Shown: piece after piece, positions 31,701 to 39,102 of the stretch | Layout of the letters: each line of letters begins with the position of its first letter | Position numbering within the stretch: the stretch's first letter is position 1 | NCBI RefSeq assembly: GCF_008728835.1 | Contig: NZ_CP042582.1 | Coordinates: 2,941,001-3,005,000 of the forward strand | Direction: 5' to 3' | Source: Hypericibacter adhaerens | GTDB lineage: Bacteria > Pseudomonadota > Alphaproteobacteria > Dongiales > Dongiaceae | DNA: 64,000 nucleotides | Translations under genes and position numbers: made by a program | The notes under the pieces: generated by a model | Told to the model about the DNA's origin: nothing | Seen by the model: the letters and a program-made list of their open reading frames with translations, nothing else | Database searches by the model: none

Positions 31701-32549
31701 TCAGGACGGCCCGAATTCGCCCGACAGCGGCGCCACGGTCATCACCGGCGGAGGCTTCACGCCCATGATCGAAAGCAGGGTCGGGGCCACAGCAAGCTGG
31801 GACACCGTCTCGGTCGCCACGCCCCCTTGCGGATGCCCCACATCGTAGAACGGTACCAGGCGCTCGGCGTCGGTGGTGCCGCCATGGCGGCCGTCCTCGG
31901 TCTGGCCGTGATCGGAGGTGACGAGCACGCGATAACCTTCATCGCGCCAGAGATGCAGGACCTCCGCCAGCGCGTTGTCGAGTGCCCAGACCGCATGGTG
32001 ATACTCAACCGAGGCCGTACCGTAGAGGTGCCCGAGCGCGTCCGGCGCGAAGCCGTGGATCAGCAGGTAGTCCGGACAATGGCGGCGGATGAGCAGGGTC
32101 GCGCGCGTGAACAGATCCGTCTCGGAGGGAAGGTTCAGGTTCCATTTGGTGTAGCCCAGCTCGGAATAGAAGCGACCATGCTGGATGGCCAGTGACGGAT
32201 CATCCACCTCCATATCGCGCAGCGCATCATAGGGCGCGACGTTGTAAAGCTCCGAGAAGAAGTAATGGGCCACGGCACCGGTGGTCCGGCCGGCTTCCCG
32301 CGCCAGCCCGAAAACATGCGGCCCCTTGGAGAGCACCACGCGATCGTTGCTCCGGATGCCATGAACATAGGGGGGCGTGCCGGTATGCAAGGTCTCGTAG
32401 ACGGGCGCGGACAGCGAGGGCAGCACGGATCGCATGCACCAGCGCCGGGCAAGGCCGGCCTCGACTAGGCCCTCAAGGGTGCCACAATCGCGCAACGCCG
32501 CGTCATACCCCACGGCATCGAACAACACGAGAACGACTTTTTCGGCCAA
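31701..32549 (-). CDS. Alkaline-phosphatase-superfamily phosphodiesterase/pyrophosphatase
   Basis: 282 residues, type I phosphodiesterase/nucleotide pyrophosphatase fold. Metal ligands Asp11 (LFDAVG), PDALGH and SDHGQT are present. The nucleophile appears to be Ser47 in PSLSAPVYETLHTG, where many family members have Thr. No signal peptide, so cytoplasmic. Last gene of the peptide-type ABC operon, 20 bp after the ATPase gene. It may split a phosphodiester or phosphonate imported by that system (inference). Convergent with the outer-membrane protein gene. Confidence 0.8.
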   Translation of the reverse strand: MAEKVVLVLFDAVGYDAALRDCGTLEGLVEAGLARRWCMRSVLPSLSAPVYETLHTGTPPYVHGIRSNDRVVLSKGPHVFGLAREAGRTTGAVAHYFFSELYNVAPYDALRDMEVDDPSLAIQHGRFYSELGYTKWNLNLPSETDLFTRATLLIRRHCPDYLLIHGFAPDALGHLYGTASVEYHHAVWALDNALAEVLHLWRDEGYRVLVTSDHGQTEDGRHGGTTDAERLVPFYDVGHPQGGVATETVSQLAVAPTLLSIMGVKPPPVMTVAPLSGEFGPS

Positions 32550-32569: not shown

Positions 32570-34219
32570 TCAGGTAACGCCCAGCGCGGATCCGCGCTTC
32601 GAAAGAATGTCGTCAAGCCACCCCAGGCGCATCTCGGGCACCGAGGCGAGAAGCCTGCCGGTATAGTCGTCGAAGGGCGGCGACAGGACCGCTCGTTTCG
32701 TGCCGTGGCGGACCACCCCGCCGCGATACATCACCGCCACGGAATCGGCGATGGCGCGCACGGTGGCGATATCGTGGGTGATGACGAGGTAGGACAGGCC
32801 CTTCTCCTGCTGCAGGCGGAGCATCAGCTTCAGGATCTCGTCGGCCACCAACGGATCGAGCGCCGAGGTGACCTCGTCGCAGATGACCAGCTCGGGATCC
32901 GCCGCCAGCGCGCGGGCGATACAGACGCGCTGCTTCTGCCCGCCGGAGAGCTCGGCCGGATAACGGTCCATGAAACGCCCGCCCATTTCGATCTGGTCGA
33001 GCAGCTCCGCCACCCGGCGGCGGCGCGATGCGGCATCGAGACCGAAATAGAACTCCAGGGGGCGGCCGATGATCTGCCCAACCGTGTGGCGCGGATTCAT
33101 CGCCGTGTCCGGCATCTGATAGATCATCTGGATGCGCCGCAGCTGCTCGCGGGTGCGCTCGGCAAGACGCGGCGCCAAGGTGGCGCCGGCGAACTGCAGC
33201 CGCCCGGAAAGCGGCGGGAGCAGGCCGGTGATGACACGCGCCAGGGTGGATTTGCCCGATCCGGATTCGCCGACGATCGCCAGCGTCTCGCCCCGGTCGA
33301 CCCGCACCGAGACGTTCTCCAGAACCGGCACGAGATTGGCATAGGTCGCGGTGACGCCCTCCGCCACCAGCAGAGGATCGTTCTTCGGCGCCGCTTCCGG
33401 TTTCTGCACCGAGCGGACCGCCACCAGACGCCGGGTGTAGTCTTCGCGCGGCGCGGTGATGATCTGGCCGGCCGAGCCGTATTCGACCATCTTGCCGTGC
33501 CGCAGCACCATGATGTCGTCGGCGATCTGCGCAACGACCGCGAGATCGTGGCTGATATAGAGGGCCGCGGTATGACTGTCCCGGATCGCGTCCTTGATGG
33601 CGGCAAGGACCTCCACCTGGGTCGTCACGTCGAGCGCCGTCGTCGGCTCGTCGAAGACGACGAGGTCCGGTCCGGGACAGAGCGCCAGCGCCGTCATCGC
33701 GCGCTGAAGCTGGCCGCCCGAAACCTGGTGCGGGAACCGCCGGCCGAACTGCGCCGGCTCGGGGAGCCGCAGCCGCTCGAACAACCGGACGGCGCGCTGC
33801 TCCGCGTCCGCGCGCGAATAGACCCCGTGCTTGATCGCCGCTTCGACCACCTGGGGGCCGATGCGCTGCGCCGGATTGAAGGCGGCAGCCGCCGACTGCG
33901 CCACATAAGTGACGACCCGGCCGCGCAACCGGCGAACGCGGGGGAGATCGAGCCTCAGGAGGTCCACGCCGTCCAGCCGCGCCGCGCCGCCGACGAGGCG
34001 GCAACCGCCGCGGCCGTAGCCGAGGGCAGCCAGACCGACCGTCGATTTACCCGCCCCGGATTCGCCGATGAGCCCCAGCACCCGCCCCTTGGGCAGCAGG
34101 AAGGAGACGCCATCGACGATGGTCGCATCGTAAGGTTCCCCGTCCGGCGGATAGATTCGCGCTTCGACCCGCAGATCGCGGACCTCGAGTACGGGAGACG
34201 CCGCGCCCCTCTCAGCCAT
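32570..34219 (-). CDS. Dipeptide/oligopeptide-type ABC importer, fused double ATPase
   Basis: 549 residues with two complete nucleotide-binding domains. Domain 1: Walker A GESGAGKST, signature VSGGQLQRAM, Walker B LVVFDEPTTALD. Domain 2, from about residue 285: GESGSGKST, LSGGQKQR, LVICDEVTSALD. It therefore replaces separate DppD and DppF subunits, as in YejF-like and GsiA-like proteins. It overlaps the permease upstream by 8 bp. Confidence 0.93.
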   Translation of the reverse strand: MAERGAASPVLEVRDLRVEARIYPPDGEPYDATIVDGVSFLLPKGRVLGLIGESGAGKSTVGLAALGYGRGGCRLVGGAARLDGVDLLRLDLPRVRRLRGRVVTYVAQSAAAAFNPAQRIGPQVVEAAIKHGVYSRADAEQRAVRLFERLRLPEPAQFGRRFPHQVSGGQLQRAMTALALCPGPDLVVFDEPTTALDVTTQVEVLAAIKDAIRDSHTAALYISHDLAVVAQIADDIMVLRHGKMVEYGSAGQIITAPREDYTRRLVAVRSVQKPEAAPKNDPLLVAEGVTATYANLVPVLENVSVRVDRGETLAIVGESGSGKSTLARVITGLLPPLSGRLQFAGATLAPRLAERTREQLRRIQMIYQMPDTAMNPRHTVGQIIGRPLEFYFGLDAASRRRRVAELLDQIEMGGRFMDRYPAELSGGQKQRVCIARALAADPELVICDEVTSALDPLVADEILKLMLRLQQEKGLSYLVITHDIATVRAIADSVAVMYRGGVVRHGTKRAVLSPPFDDYTGRLLASVPEMRLGWLDDILSKRGSALGVT

Positions 34220-35048
34220 GGCGCCCTCCCCGCAGCGAGGTCGTGCGCCGCAGGATCCAGTCCACGACCAGATTCACGCAGATGGCAAGGCAGGTGATGG
34301 CCGCTCCCGGGAACAGGGCCGCGGGAATGCCGTAGACGATGCCGTCCTTGTTTTCCTTGACCATGCCGCCCCAGTCGGCTGCGGGCGGCTGCACGCCCAG
34401 CCCGAGGAAGGAGAGCGTGCTGAGGAAGAGAACGGCGAAGGCGAAGCGCAACCCCATCTCGGCAATCAGGGGCGACAGCGCATTGGGCAGGATCTCGCGG
34501 AAGATGATCCAGCCGACCTTCTCCCCGCGCAGCCGCGCCACCTCGACGAAATCGGTCACCGCGATGTCAACGGCGACGGCGCGCGCCAGTCGATAGACAC
34601 GCGTCGCATCCAGCACCGCCATCACCAGGACCAGGGTCACGAGGTTGGAGGGCAGGACCGAGAGCACCACCAGCGCGAAGATCAGGGTCGGGATTGCCAT
34701 CAACAGATCGTTGCCACGGCTGAGGCCCTGATCGACCCACTTCCCGGCGACGCTGGCGAGAAAGCCAAGCAGAATCCCGCCGGCGAAGGACAAGATCGTG
34801 GCTGCGCCGGCGATCGATATCGTCTTGCCGCCGCCATACATGAGCCGGCTCAGAAGATCGCGGCCCAGATTGTCCGTGCCGAGCCAGGCGTGCGGCGAGG
34901 GATCCTCCCACACGTCGCCGACGATCTCACCCTCGGGATGAGGCGCCAGCACAGGTGCCAGAAGGCCCGCGCCGGCGAACAGCACGACGCCCAGGAGGCC
35001 GACGCGGGCGGCCCAGGACATGCGGCGCAGAATGCCCAGGAGCTTCAT
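34212..35048 (-). CDS. Dipeptide-type ABC importer permease DppC
   Basis: 278 residues. N-terminal membrane segment (VGLLGVVLFAGAGLLAPVLA), WLGTDNLGRDLLSRLMYGG and the EAA-type loop VARLRGEKVGWIIFREILP are diagnostic of DppC. Start ATG 35048 overlaps the stop of the DppB gene (ATGA), and it overlaps the ATPase gene at its end. Confidence 0.92.
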   Translation of the reverse strand: MKLLGILRRMSWAARVGLLGVVLFAGAGLLAPVLAPHPEGEIVGDVWEDPSPHAWLGTDNLGRDLLSRLMYGGGKTISIAGAATILSFAGGILLGFLASVAGKWVDQGLSRGNDLLMAIPTLIFALVVLSVLPSNLVTLVLVMAVLDATRVYRLARAVAVDIAVTDFVEVARLRGEKVGWIIFREILPNALSPLIAEMGLRFAFAVLFLSTLSFLGLGVQPPAADWGGMVKENKDGIVYGIPAALFPGAAITCLAICVNLVVDWILRRTTSLRGGRHG

Positions 35049-35995
35049 TTGGGATGCCGCAGCCGGGGATTCGCCACGATCGAGACGATGTCGGCAAAGG
35101 TGTTGAGCCCGATATAGGTGGCGGCGAAGATCAGGCCGCAGATCTGCACCACGGGCACATCGCGCTTGGCGACATGGTCCACCATGAGCTGGCCCAGCCC
35201 CGGATAGACGAAAATGACCTCGACCACCACCACGCCGACCACCAGATAAGCCAGGTTGAGCATGACGACATTGACGATCGGGGCGATGGCGTTGGGCAGC
35301 GCGTGCCGGACGATGATCTCGAACGGCGCCAGCCCTTTGAGCTCGGCCGTCTCGACATAGGAGCTGGAAAGCACGTTCAGGATCGCGGCTCGTGTCATGC
35401 GCATCATGTGCGCGAGCACGGCGAGGATCAGCGTCGCACAGGGCAGCACCACGGCGGAAAGCCGCTGCCCCAGGCTCATGCCGGCATGGACGTTGGAAAT
35501 GCTCGAAAACCAGTCGAGCTTGACGGCGAAGGCCATCATCAGCAGATAACCGACGAAGAACTCCGGCAGCGAGATCGCGCCCAGCGAGAGGATCGAGATC
35601 ACCCGGTCGACGAGGCCGTTGGGGTGGCGGGCGGCGATCAACCCCAGGAACACCGAGAGCGGGACCGCGATGACGGCCGCCACCGCGGCCAGGAACAGCG
35701 TATTGGCGAGGCGTCCGCCGACGAGCTGGGCGATGTCCTGGCGGTTTGCAAGGGACCGGCCGAGATCGCCGTGAAGAATCCCGCCCAGCCATTGCAGGTA
35801 ACGATAAATAGCGGGCTGATCGAGCCCGAGATCGTGGCGCAGATTGGCGACCGCCTCGGGCGTGGCCGACTGACCGAGGATGGTTTGCGCGACGTCGCCG
35901 GGCAGAATCTGGGTACCGGCGAAGATGATCGCCGAGATCGCCAGCAGCAGGACGAGCCCCAGAGCGAGGCGCTGGGCTACCAGCTTCCAAAGCAC
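35045..35995 (-). CDS. Dipeptide-type ABC importer permease DppB
   Basis: 316 residues from GTG 35995: LWKLVAQRLALGLVLLLAIS then GDVAQTILGQSATPEAVANL, and the loop TAELKGLAPFEIIVRHALP, all DppB features. The frame is open to an ATG at 36118, which would add a 41-residue arginine-rich leader with no homology. The GTG, with AAGGGA upstream, gives the usual family length. The start is the uncertain point. Confidence 0.88.
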   Translation of the reverse strand: MLWKLVAQRLALGLVLLLAISAIIFAGTQILPGDVAQTILGQSATPEAVANLRHDLGLDQPAIYRYLQWLGGILHGDLGRSLANRQDIAQLVGGRLANTLFLAAVAAVIAVPLSVFLGLIAARHPNGLVDRVISILSLGAISLPEFFVGYLLMMAFAVKLDWFSSISNVHAGMSLGQRLSAVVLPCATLILAVLAHMMRMTRAAILNVLSSSYVETAELKGLAPFEIIVRHALPNAIAPIVNVVMLNLAYLVVGVVVVEVIFVYPGLGQLMVDHVAKRDVPVVQICGLIFAATYIGLNTFADIVSIVANPRLRHPK

Positions 35996-36224
35996 GACCG
36001 GGAATCCCTTCTGCCCGAAACCCCGGTCGCGAACGCTCCCGACGCCTTGTTCGGCACCCGGAACCGATACGGCCTCTTCCCTCTTGCCATCTCTCCTCCT
36101 GGCAAGGCGGTCATCCACCGCCAGCTATCGCTCTTTCTTGCAACAATGAAACCGCAGGAGCGGGGAAAGAGGAGCCGGTGACCGCGAAGACGGTCCCCGG
36201 CTCCTCCCGCGATCTCAGCAGCCG

Positions 36225-37808
36225 CTAGGCCGACAGCCAGCAGCGCAACGCCGCGTAACCATTGCAGAACTCGCCGGCCTTGTCCTGCACGTAGCCCTGC
36301 ACCTTGTCGCTCTTGCCATCGATATAGTCGTTGAACATCGGGACGATGATGCCGCCCTCGTCATGCACCATGAGGGCCATCTCTCGATAGGTGGCCTTTC
36401 GCTTCGTGTCATCGAGCTCGGCGCGCGCCTGCATCAGGAGCTTGTCGAAATCGGGCCGGAACCATTTCGTCTCGTTCCAGTCGGCGGTCGAAAGATAGGC
36501 CGTGGCATACATCGTATCCTGCGTCGGCCGTCCGCCCCAGTAGGAGGTGCAGAACGGCTGGACGTTCCAGACATTGGACCAGTAGCCGTCGCCCGGCTCG
36601 CGCTTCACCTCGACCGTGATGCCGGCCTTGGCCGCCGACTGCTGGAACAAGGTGGCAGCGTCGACGGCACCGGGGAAGGCAACGTCCGACGTCCGCAGCA
36701 GGACAGAGCCGGAATGGCCGGATTTCTTGTAGTGGAACGCCGCCTTGTCCGGATCGTAGGGACGCTGCGGAATGTCGTCCGGAAAGAGAGCGTAGGCCGA
36801 ATTGATCGGGAAGTCGTTCCCCACGGTCCCGAAACCCTGCAGGACCTGCTTGAGCATCTCCTCGCGATTCATCGCGAACTTGAGAGCGAGGCGCAGGTCG
36901 AGATTGTCGAAGGGCGGCTTGTCGCATTGCATGATGAAGACATAATGCCCCTTGCCCGCTGTCGGCACGATCTCGACGCCCGGCGCCTTGGCGAGAAGCT
37001 TCGCCGCCTTCGGATCGACGCGATTGACCATATGCACCTGGCCCGACTGCAGGGCCGACATCCGTGCCGTCTGGTCGTTGATCACCAGGATCTCGATCGA
37101 GTCGACGTGGCCGAGGTCGGGATTCCAGTAGTTCGGATTCTTCTTGCCGGTGTAGCGCACGCCATGCTCGACCGAATCGACCATGTAGGCGCCGGTGCCG
37201 ATCCCGGCATTGGGGTCCCCGCCCTCCGGCTGGATGATGAGATGATAGTCGCTGATGAGGTAGGGCAGATCGGCATTGGGCGCTTTCAGCTTGAGCGTCA
37301 CCGCATATTGGCCGTCGGCTTCGATGGCCGCGATGTCCCGCATGATGCCGAGCGCGCCGGACTTCGATTTCTCGTCGGAATGGCGCAGCAGCGTCGCGAC
37401 CACGTCGGCCGAGGTCATGTCCTTGCCGTTGTGGAAGGTGACGCCCTTGCGCAGCTTGATCGACCATGTCTGCGCGTCGGCGGTGCTGTCGAAGCTTTCC
37501 GCGAGCCAAGGCACGGCCGTGCCGTCGGTCGGAGAAGTCTCGATCAGCACGTCACCCCAGCAGCGGCCAAAGTGATAGGGCACCTGGGAGCTGTCCAGCG
37601 CCGGATCGAGGCTGTCGGTCGACGCACCGCCGACCAGTCCGTACACGAGGTGGCCGCCCTTCTGGGGCGTTGCCGCCCGCGCGGCCTGCGCGAACAACAA
37701 GCTCGCCGACGCGGCCGAAAGGCCGAGCGCGGTGGCTCGGCCGAGAAAGGCGCGGCGGCTCAGGCGTCCGCGCATAATCTGTCGTTGCAGATAGGCGATC
37801 TCCGACAT
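36225..37808 (-). CDS. ABC importer solute-binding protein, family 5 (peptide type)
   Basis: 527 residues. Tat-like signal SRRAFLGRATALGLSAAS ending ARAATP, then the family 5 pattern: GGHLVYGL, PWLAESFDSTADAQTWSIKL, KGVTFHNGKDMTSADVVATL. ATG 37808 has GGGAGGAA upstream. First structural gene of the importer; family 5 proteins bind di- and oligopeptides, opines, nickel and sugar derivatives. A perfect inverted repeat lies 83 bp upstream. Confidence 0.92.
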   Translation of the reverse strand: MSEIAYLQRQIMRGRLSRRAFLGRATALGLSAASASLLFAQAARAATPQKGGHLVYGLVGGASTDSLDPALDSSQVPYHFGRCWGDVLIETSPTDGTAVPWLAESFDSTADAQTWSIKLRKGVTFHNGKDMTSADVVATLLRHSDEKSKSGALGIMRDIAAIEADGQYAVTLKLKAPNADLPYLISDYHLIIQPEGGDPNAGIGTGAYMVDSVEHGVRYTGKKNPNYWNPDLGHVDSIEILVINDQTARMSALQSGQVHMVNRVDPKAAKLLAKAPGVEIVPTAGKGHYVFIMQCDKPPFDNLDLRLALKFAMNREEMLKQVLQGFGTVGNDFPINSAYALFPDDIPQRPYDPDKAAFHYKKSGHSGSVLLRTSDVAFPGAVDAATLFQQSAAKAGITVEVKREPGDGYWSNVWNVQPFCTSYWGGRPTQDTMYATAYLSTADWNETKWFRPDFDKLLMQARAELDDTKRKATYREMALMVHDEGGIIVPMFNDYIDGKSDKVQGYVQDKAGEFCNGYAALRCWLSA

Positions 37809-37862
37809 GGGCGTTCCTCCCTCTCTTCTCTTCATTGGAGCGGCGATGCCGCTCGAGGGGCA

Positions 37863-37890
37863 GGATTACGCGGAGCTCGGAGGCAGACAA
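37863..37890 (-). promoter_or_regulatory. Candidate promoter of the peptide-type ABC operon
   Basis: On the minus strand TTGTCT (37885-37890) and TAATCC (37863-37868) are 16 bp apart. The match to the sigma-70 consensus is modest, but the -35 directly abuts the inverted repeat at 37891-37907, as expected for a regulated promoter 50-60 bp ahead of the start codon. Confidence 0.4.
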
Positions 37891-37907
37891 TGTTCGTAAT
37901 TCGAACA
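37891..37907. promoter_or_regulatory. Perfect inverted-repeat operator TGTTCG-N5-CGAACA
   Basis: Six-base arms TGTTCG and CGAACA around TAATT, located between the regulator gene and the solute-binding protein gene. Its position just upstream of a candidate -35 favours an activator site, or a repressor that blocks the polymerase. The neighbouring three-domain regulator is the obvious candidate to bind it. Confidence 0.65.
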
Positions 37908-37957: not shown

Positions 37958-38812
37958 TCAGCGTCCGATGAGAACCGGTGGCGCGAAGACGCGGCCGGCG
38001 CCGGCGATCTGACACAAAACCGCAAACACACGGTCAGGTGCAGCGAAATCGGTGACGACGAAGGCACCGTCCCGCTCCGCGCCCGCCGCTTCCGCGATCC
38101 GGTCGATCGCCTGCGGGTCGACTTCGATCATGCTGACGCCGCTCAACCCCATGTCGGCCAGAGCCAGCCTCGCGATCGCGGCGACGTCACCCGTCCCGAC
38201 GAGAACGACGCGGCGAAATCCGCGATCGATGCAGACCCGGCACAGGCGCTCATACTGATCGCGAAGCTCGCGAAAGAACGTCAGGTTCCGCTCGACATGC
38301 CAGGAGACGAGCAGATCCTTCTGCGCCCGCCCTTTCTCCGTGAGGATGTAGGCGGGGCGCGAATGCCGGCTGGGCCGTGCGTTGGATTTGCCAACCAACC
38401 CGTGCCGCACGCAGTTGCCGATATAATGGTTGGCGACGCCGATGGAGATGCCGAGTTGGCGGGCCAGCTCTCGCTGAGAGAGGGCCGGATCCCGATCGAA
38501 TGCCTCGAGGATGCGCAGAGCGAGCTCGCGCTCGACACTGCGCTTGGCATTGCGGATGGTGGGGGCGAAATCCGCGGCGATGAAGGCCGGCATGGCGGCC
38601 GAACGATCAATCACCGCTTTGCGGGCCGGCATCAGCATCGCCAGGGTGCGCTCCGCCCAAGCCGTCGCCTGGGCCAAATCCGGCACCCGGCTGCTTTTGA
38701 CGACAGGTCGCTTCCGGCCGGGGATATTGAAGGCGGCCTGCCAATATCGGGAAGGACGGTCGACGCGCTTGAAAAGCCGCACGCGCCCTTCGCAGATCAT
38801 GATCCCCTTCAT
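37958..38812 (-). CDS. Three-domain transcriptional regulator: arm-like N terminus, MarR-type wHTH, Rossmann-like C terminus
   Basis: 284 residues. Residues 10-60 (VRLFKRVDRPSRYWQAAFNI onward) resemble the AP2-like arm DNA-binding domain of phage-type integrases. Residues 95-165 are a winged helix (LSQRELARQLGISIGVANHY, then AYILTEKGRAQKDLL) close to the EPS-associated MarR type. Residues 166-195 are helical, and 200-284 look like a nucleotide-binding Rossmann fold (RVVLVGTGDVAAIARLAL, MIEVD). It lies 149 bp upstream of the ABC operon in the same direction. No Shine-Dalgarno is evident at ATG 38812; ATG 38800 is an alternative. It probably senses a nucleotide or sugar-nucleotide ligand and controls the importer (inference). 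Confidence 0.75.
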   Translation of the reverse strand: MKGIMICEGRVRLFKRVDRPSRYWQAAFNIPGRKRPVVKSSRVPDLAQATAWAERTLAMLMPARKAVIDRSAAMPAFIAADFAPTIRNAKRSVERELALRILEAFDRDPALSQRELARQLGISIGVANHYIGNCVRHGLVGKSNARPSRHSRPAYILTEKGRAQKDLLVSWHVERNLTFFRELRDQYERLCRVCIDRGFRRVVLVGTGDVAAIARLALADMGLSGVSMIEVDPQAIDRIAEAAGAERDGAFVVTDFAAPDRVFAVLCQIAGAGRVFAPPVLIGR

Positions 38813-39102
38813 CCAGACCGTCCGCCCGAACCCGGGTGCCCTTTCCCTTCACGCCGGTGCCGCTTCGCCGGCGCGTCCCGGGCCGCGCCATGGTTGTCCA
38901 CCGCTTCGGCCCGCCACGAAGCCTAGCCACACACACTGCCGGGTGCAATGCACACACCGCGCTGTCGACCTTCCACCTGACCGCCAAGAAAAGCAACGGA
39001 CCGATACATGCCCGGGCCGTCGGCCCCCGGGAGGCGAGCGGCCCTGGACCCCTTCTCCGCCTTCGGCCAAGATCGCTGCCTCCTTGAACAGAAAGCCGTT
39101 CC
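38813..39102. other. Divergent intergenic region, no gene seen
   Basis: 290 bp between the regulator (minus) and the alpha/beta hydrolase (plus). It must hold both promoters, but I could not assign -10/-35 pairs. No convincing small gene or repeat. Confidence 0.5.

Follow-up and report, generated by a model that had tools for sequence, protein, structure and literature searches.

A putative integrase-type arm-binding domain joined to a winged-helix/Rossmann-like regulator ahead of a peptide-transport operon in Hypericibacter adhaerens

The window analysed here, a whole stretch of 64,000 nucleotides from the genome of Hypericibacter adhaerens, carries at positions 37958–38812 (minus strand) the gene for a three-domain regulator, in which a domain homologous to the N-terminal domain of tyrosine recombinases precedes a winged helix and a small Rossmann-like domain. 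Taken together, the evidence makes it fairly probable that this fusion of an integrase-derived domain with a winged-helix/Rossmann-like regulator acts locally, most likely as an autorepressor, on the peptide-type ABC transport operon that follows it. What is new is the joining of a known type of regulator to a domain which, in the literature searched, is described for integrases only. A direct repeat of 11-bp period, GCACACACnTTGCACACAC, was also newly found just before the regulator gene, once per genome in six genomes.

The open frame lies exactly at 38812–37958 and comprises 284 codons. The preliminary description of this DNA had located it correctly; the minus strand, the operon partner and the operator candidate were absent from that description. 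A second ATG at 38800, with AAGGGG just upstream, has a better ribosome-binding sequence than the first one and may be the true start, giving a protein of 280 aa. Since five relatives keep the frame intact at an overall identity of 34–38%, it is not a chance frame, and the regulator is confirmed as a real gene with three-domain anatomy. Among the six fused proteins 24 of residues 1–62, 26 of the 75 residues at 84–158 and 10 of the 86 residues at 199–284 are invariant, and the motifs RLFxRxDRP, WQAAF and RPxVKS are kept. Comparison of the whole regulator with PDB sequences gave a best E of 0.074. The best AlphaFold2 model of the full-length protein has a mean pLDDT of 84.0; given its pTM of 0.55 and the lower values of the other four models (71.7–74.1), the relative placement of the domains is uncertain.

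Homology of residues ~1–62 (38627–38812, minus strand) to the N-terminal arm-binding domain of tyrosine recombinases is supported by comparison at the profile level. A first-domain profile built from seven sequences was searched in a draw of 385 genomes of the class and matched integrases outside the family of the window genome, the best being those of G342 (E 2.6e-8) and G227 (4.0e-8), both per genome, followed by G115 (3.5e-6), G025 (2.8e-5) and G294 (6.6e-4). When multiplied by the 385 genomes, the E-values of the best two stay near 1e-5. Twelve of the 15 non-family loci fetched with this profile were read. L034 (G393) has a match of E 1.2e-6 in a frame of 67 codons, and the matches at L037, L038, L040, L042, L045 and L046 are no integrases and look like chance. 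Two weaker matches, in G111 (0.0022) and G119 (0.044), proved to be integrases once fetched by an integrase search.

For that search one integrase was used as the query; 23 loci were processed, 21 of them with a usable N-terminus, and 13 non-redundant proteins were aligned. Comparison of the regulator's first domain with these 13 integrase N-termini by hhalign gave Prob 97.2 and a score of 54.2 over 51 columns, against scores of at most 17.0 for 60 column shuffles, 14.0 for reversed profiles and 11.8 for ten other integrase slices. Without the four integrases first found by the first-domain profile, Prob was 96.0 and the score 45.2. Removal of G111 and G119 as well, which leaves seven proteins and takes out every integrase listed by the regulator's first-domain profile itself, still gave Prob 93.7 (~94%) and a score of 37.9 (reversed, 15.1). 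The match of the first domain to full-length integrases was weaker (Prob 92.9), and Prob was 86.0 when both regulator and integrases were taken at full length. PHROGs typed all six tested integrases as integrase, with matches that each start within the N-terminal domain, and all 12 distinct integrases scanned with Pfam (E up to 1) show at least a weak integrase domain. Invariance in the fused proteins extends to the residues shared with integrases (RLFKR, W-Q, R..KS or R.ST, A..WA).

In the best full-length model the first domain (block pLDDT 85–95) is predicted to consist of strands 4–6, 11–14, 25–28 and 37–40 and a helix at 46–60; according to PMC8138268, an arm-binding domain has three strands and one helix and recognises arm sites. 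Modelled alone, the domain is poor (pLDDT 69.3). Foldseek searches with it returned five matches in the PDB (best E 4.8) and 61 among viral models (best E 0.81), with no integrase named among the best 50 of the 61. Neither Pfam nor PHROG gave a family match to the first domain alone (0/7 members each), and the profile search of the PDB yielded one match, at E 0.17. The structural comparison of the whole model lists no arm domain; it mainly probes residues 82–185 and so excludes nothing. Therefore, the domain call rests on sequence homology and the full-length model. No Phage_integrase or SAM-like match, and thus no core-binding or catalytic domain, was found in the regulator by Pfam (E up to 1).

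The second domain is a MarR/PadR-like winged helix at residues 95–158 (38339–38530, minus strand), on which Pfam, NCBIfam, the model and structural comparison agree. Pfam HTH_24 matches the regulator with 39.5 bits, above the gathering cut-off of 21.9, as well as all 14 members of A1, the alignment of regulator relatives (E up to 1). The NCBIfam model MarR_EPS (TIGR04176) matches residues 95–190 with 50.8 bits and all 14 A1 members at E 0.01 or better (best E 1.7e-19). Its curated cut-off of 88 is not reached, which makes the regulator a relative of MarR_EPS outside that family. In structural comparison the middle domain matched PadR-family Rv3488 (5zhc; Z 12.3, 97 aligned, rmsd 3.3) and MexR (1lnw; Z 11.3, 86 aligned, rmsd 2.1). 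A long helix follows in the full-length model at residues 159–196 (38225–38338, minus strand) and is perhaps the dimer helix.

The third domain comprises residues 199–284 and, with the stop codon, occupies 37958–38218 (minus strand); it was delimited by alignment, model and structural comparison and carries GTGDVA at 206–211. In the best AlphaFold2 model residues 201–270 (block pLDDT 80–92) run beta-alpha three times, with three clear strands only, and GTGDVA follows the first strand, so that a beta-alpha-beta core with a glycine-rich loop after strand 1 is present in the prediction. G206 is invariant in all 14 A1 members and G208 in all six fused forms. The Rossmann-like part (model residues 181–284) was matched to 4rkr, a LacI-family effector domain (Z 10.1, 99 aligned, rmsd 2.7), with a Z not far above that of common arrangements; three strands are plain in the model. 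Pfam recognised no confident family here, only weak traces such as Shikimate_DH (2/14) and CoA_binding (1/14).

The preliminary description had named an arm-like segment, a MarR winged helix of EPS type and a putative nucleotide-binding domain, and all three assignments survive sequence-profile tests and structure prediction. The arm-like character of the first ~60 residues is borne out by the integrase homology in both the profile search and hhalign, while for their fold the full-length model shows the order of strands and helix and the isolated domain gave a poor model with no fold match. The winged helix is of MarR type and kin to MarR_EPS, below the cut-off of that family, and the C-terminal domain is Rossmann-like in the predicted model. 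It had also been suggested that no regulator with this domain order was described; none with an arm-like domain, a winged helix and a Rossmann-like domain was found in the freely accessible, published literature searched.

The regulator gene heads a run of genes on the minus strand. The next gene, 122 bp after it, encodes an SBP_bac_5 peptide-type ABC transporter binding protein (36225–37835) and is followed by two ABC permeases (BPD_transp_1; 35045–36118 and 34212–about 35081, the second with 102.3 bits) and a double ABC ATPase (32570–34219; ABC_tran in two stretches, weak oligo_HPY), all assigned by Pfam. A type I phosphodiesterase/nucleotide pyrophosphatase-like protein (31701–32549) ends the run. 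The divergent plus-strand neighbours of the regulator encode an alpha/beta-hydrolase and an enoyl-CoA hydratase. In all six intact loci, from two genera, the binding-protein gene follows the regulator on the same strand after a gap of 28–122 bp; its domain was assigned by Pfam in the window and in L020, and by 79–96% identity at the remaining loci. The binding protein of the window is 44–46% identical to the partners in the relatives and 51% identical to a transporter protein of G002, a genome without the regulator. After the binding protein the relatives, unlike the window, have an ABC protein (ABC_membrane + ABC_tran) and Peptidase_M19. The latter, a membrane dipeptidase gene, follows the binding protein in L020 and has homologues in the other four relatives; its position hints at peptides on the ligand side. 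No integrase neighbours of the fused regulators were seen by eye in the gene tables.

Between the regulator and the binding-protein gene all six loci contain TTAAAAACATTG or a close version of it, which in the window is TTACGAACATTG (37888–37899, minus strand), recognised by eye from its resemblance; in L017–L021 the word comes immediately behind the stop codon of the regulator. All five intact loci of genus g6 have TAAAAACRTTG after the regulator. Across 17 genomes this word has 11 matches, five of which are the g6 loci, versus 11 for a backward control, and is no rarer than chance; the G015 copy of the TTAAAAACATTG-type word lies by other genes. Only the place of TTAAAAACATTG is notable.

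A protein search with the regulator matched 16 of 61 genomes, its own included. All 17 genomes of the window's family were searched and seven match, in two of the seven genera; the other genome of the window's genus does not. The fused gene is intact in six of the 17 (the window genome, G006, G009, G011, G013 and G016); G015 has a truncated copy of 68 codons close to the end of a contig. A profile of the winged helix and the Rossmann-like domain matched 91 of 385 class genomes at E 1e-8 or better, a few of them over the winged helix only; in an equal class draw the first-domain profile fell below E 1e-30 in five genomes, all of the window's family. The full profile matched 37 of 398 phylum genomes, 35 of them only from profile position 85 on, the first domain being covered only in two family members. 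No further fused forms were thus found with the first-domain profile in 385 class genomes or with the full profile in 398 phylum genomes. A contig scan with two peptide patterns recovered four loci in 101 stretches, all carriers already found; the patterns are narrow, so distant fused forms could be missed.

The short relatives, which have no first domain, are homologous to the regulator over residues ~85–284. In an unrooted tree of 35 proteins, computed for this shared part, the six fused forms are set apart from all others by a branch with support 100/99; 18 of the 32 inner forks of this tree are open and its bootstrap did not settle. The simplest history would be a single fusion event within the family, after which the operon partner changed. 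A NusG/RfaH-like gene follows the short relatives on the same strand in 27 of the 29 loci examined (those fetched, minus duplicates and fused forms), six of these pairs showing an apparent overlap of 264–534 bases from the start codon picked by the script. One of the NusG-like proteins was confirmed by Pfam, some of the loci also contain nucleotide-sugar dehydrogenases and other polysaccharide genes (by eye), and no NusG-like gene was seen at the fused loci. At L007–L014 and L114–L137 the short regulator stands directly before the NusG/RfaH-like gene, often overlapping it by four bases, and the two can be read as a regulator/antiterminator pair, in some cases within polysaccharide clusters.

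The searches also brought up a different arrangement, in which one frame (L016 / L074:6630–8711, minus strand) encodes PUA_2, ATP-sulfurylase and APS kinase domains together with a MarR-type winged helix (HTH_24), all of them Pfam-tested in L016 only. In 12 genomes of family f23, found in the phylum search, the winged-helix match lies in a frame of 690–705 codons. By its predicted domains the HTH_24 + ATP-sulfurylase/APS kinase frame appears to be a regulator-enzyme fusion.

Common to the five intact relatives, in the DNA upstream of the gene, is TGCACACAC-n-TTGCACACAC or a close version of it. GCACACACNTTGCACACAC occurs exactly once in each of five of the 17 family genomes. With three mismatches allowed, the 21-letter repeat is found in six of the 17, once each and in every case a short way before the regulator gene, which also holds for the truncated copy of G015; it is found in none of the ten family genomes without the regulator and not in the window genome, and its backward control has one match across the 17 genomes. 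In an alignment of the six upstream regions 17 of the 18 block columns are invariant, versus 13 of the 118 positions before the block. The block ends 2–19 bp before the start codon, and TG-N-TA, a feature of the extended -10 promoter element, stands 11 or 19 bp before it in all six, a spacing that would put the block about at the transcription start. In six relatives, then, a conserved genome-unique repeat is preceded by a promoter-like sequence and followed by the start codon. Since it occurs in differing frames relative to the regulator, and in G016 beyond an in-frame stop, the block is kept as DNA. Judged from its sequence and position it is probably the regulator's own on/off site in most known carriers, and the bipartite site envisaged in the preliminary description gains support from this conserved tandem repeat. 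In four of the six genomes (L019, L020, L021 and L098) the repeat doubles as coding sequence of a very short upstream frame, MHTPCTH..., whose end coincides with the start of the regulator or is close to it.

The window's own candidate operator, CACACACACTGCCGGGTGCAATGCACACACC (38928–38958, no strand), consists of CACACAC words 21 bp apart and has TGCACACACC in common with the relatives' repeat. It lies 128–158 bp upstream of the ATG at 38800, compared with 2–19 bp in the relatives, and is the only place with CACACAC-14-CACACAC and TGCACACACC in the 5.87-Mb window genome and in the 17 family genomes; the CACACAC-14-CACACAC pattern was written after seeing the site, and its backward control also has one match in the window genome. 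The 64-kb window has one copy of TGCACACACC, against 0.08 expected, and seven of 100 shuffles have one. A promoter scan of this region gave no sigma-70-like site at the tool's threshold; TTGCAC-17-TAGGCT next to the window's repeat was recognised by eye only. With its other orientation, 21-bp spacing and greater distance the window counterpart is less sure than the site of the relatives, where alone the predicted operator is well supported. CACACAC/GTGTGTG is absent from all 29 short-relative loci (300 bp upstream plus the first 30 bp of the frame as picked).

These results suggest how the regulator might work. The arm-binding domain of a phage or mobile-element integrase would have been placed before a winged-helix + Rossmann-like regulator of the NusG/RfaH-adjacent kind. 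The winged helices of a dimer, together with the integrase-type sheets, would hold the tandem direct repeat at the transcription start, and the bound regulator would block the promoter, so shutting down its own transcription together with that of the downstream peptide-transport genes. Release would come from a small molecule bound in the Rossmann-like domain, perhaps one derived from the imported peptide. Computation shows the domain identities, the fused forms on one side of a tree branch, the conserved gene order and the repeat of the six relatives; DNA binding by the first domain, the assignment of half-sites, repression rather than activation, and any ligand are inferred.

The arm sites of phage lambda come as neighbouring direct repeats. 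Direct repeats one DNA turn apart suit an asymmetric binder and recall these arm sites, and for this reason the integrase-type domain is proposed as the reader: by this analogy it would most likely read the direct repeat upstream of the regulator. More tentatively, and with somewhat less than even confidence, we propose that an integrase arm domain was domesticated to read tandem direct repeats at its own promoter in the manner in which integration reads arm sites, the winged helix holding the dimer and the Rossmann-like domain sensing a metabolite. If true, a MarR-like dimer would have a second way of locating one site in a genome, besides the reading of palindromes.

It is unlikely that the integrase-derived domain is a relic serving dimerisation or protein contact, with operator reading left to the winged helix. 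A MarR-type protein can usually do without a further DNA-binding domain, and the first-domain fold was not confirmed when modelled alone. However, the residues shared with integrases belong to the invariant set, and the conserved site is built as a direct repeat, whereas MarR dimers usually read a palindrome.

Repression of the neighbouring operon could also be the wrong assumption, in that the regulator might be an activator or act on distant genes, the transporter being only a passenger. The repeat does precede the regulator itself rather than the transporter gene, before which the other conserved stretch, TTAAAAACATTG, is found; yet the gene order is kept in all six intact loci of the two genera, and the carrier genomes hold no second repeat copy within three mismatches, which leaves this reading rather improbable. 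Quite unlikely is leader-peptide control, with the repeat as a translational signal in a short upstream frame (M-H-T-P-C-T-H-...). Frames of this kind, MHTPCTHPV, MHTPCTHP, MHTPCTHS and MHTPCTHPQAPG in G013, G011, G006 and G015, end near or overlap the regulator start codon, but G009 and G016 keep the repeat DNA without an ATG for such a frame, and third codon positions show no less invariance than the first two. That the protein is a decayed recombinase fused by accident, without regulator function, is scarcely credible: its first domain is integrase-derived, but strong conservation with intact frames in six species largely refutes decay, no core-binding or catalytic domain was matched and no integrase neighbours were seen by eye, so the integrase remnant was rejected.

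The preferred reading, that of a local and probably autorepressing regulator, can be set against several known systems. The closest are the winged-helix + Rossmann-like regulators of Alphaproteobacteria that are kin to MarR_EPS and adjacent to NusG/RfaH-like genes. These are homologous to our regulator beyond its first domain, which they lack, and their NusG-like neighbour (27/29) has no counterpart at the fused loci. The comparison marks a regulator family beside NusG/RfaH-like genes, whose Rossmann-like domain may be a sensor. To the arm-binding domain of tyrosine recombinases the homology extends over ~51 columns, and the order of strands and helix in the full-length model fits the arm domain of PMC8138268. 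Unlike these enzymes, the regulator has no core-binding or catalytic domain and is joined to a winged helix, and its candidate site precedes its own gene instead of lying at an attachment site. MarR/PadR regulators provide the best structural matches of the middle domain, in contrast to which the regulator has extra domains on both sides and a direct repeat as candidate site. Foldseek places CggR, the central glycolytic genes regulator, first among the matches to the whole model (E 2.2e-4); CggR has no integrase-type domain, and the rmsd of 12.9 over 229 alignment columns indicates likeness of general layout only. The same type of event, reuse of a recombinase DNA-binding domain in a regulator, is seen in the ALOG domains of plants and in Crypton-derived factors (PMC3537659; PMC3212892), which are eukaryotic, and it is for eukaryotes that such recruitment is described. 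A bacterial case that combines the arm domain with an intact regulator, a constant operon partner and a candidate site occurring once per genome would open the step from integrase to regulator to direct study, and the conserved 11-bp direct repeat is a ready DNA probe by which the claim can be tested in a single binding experiment.
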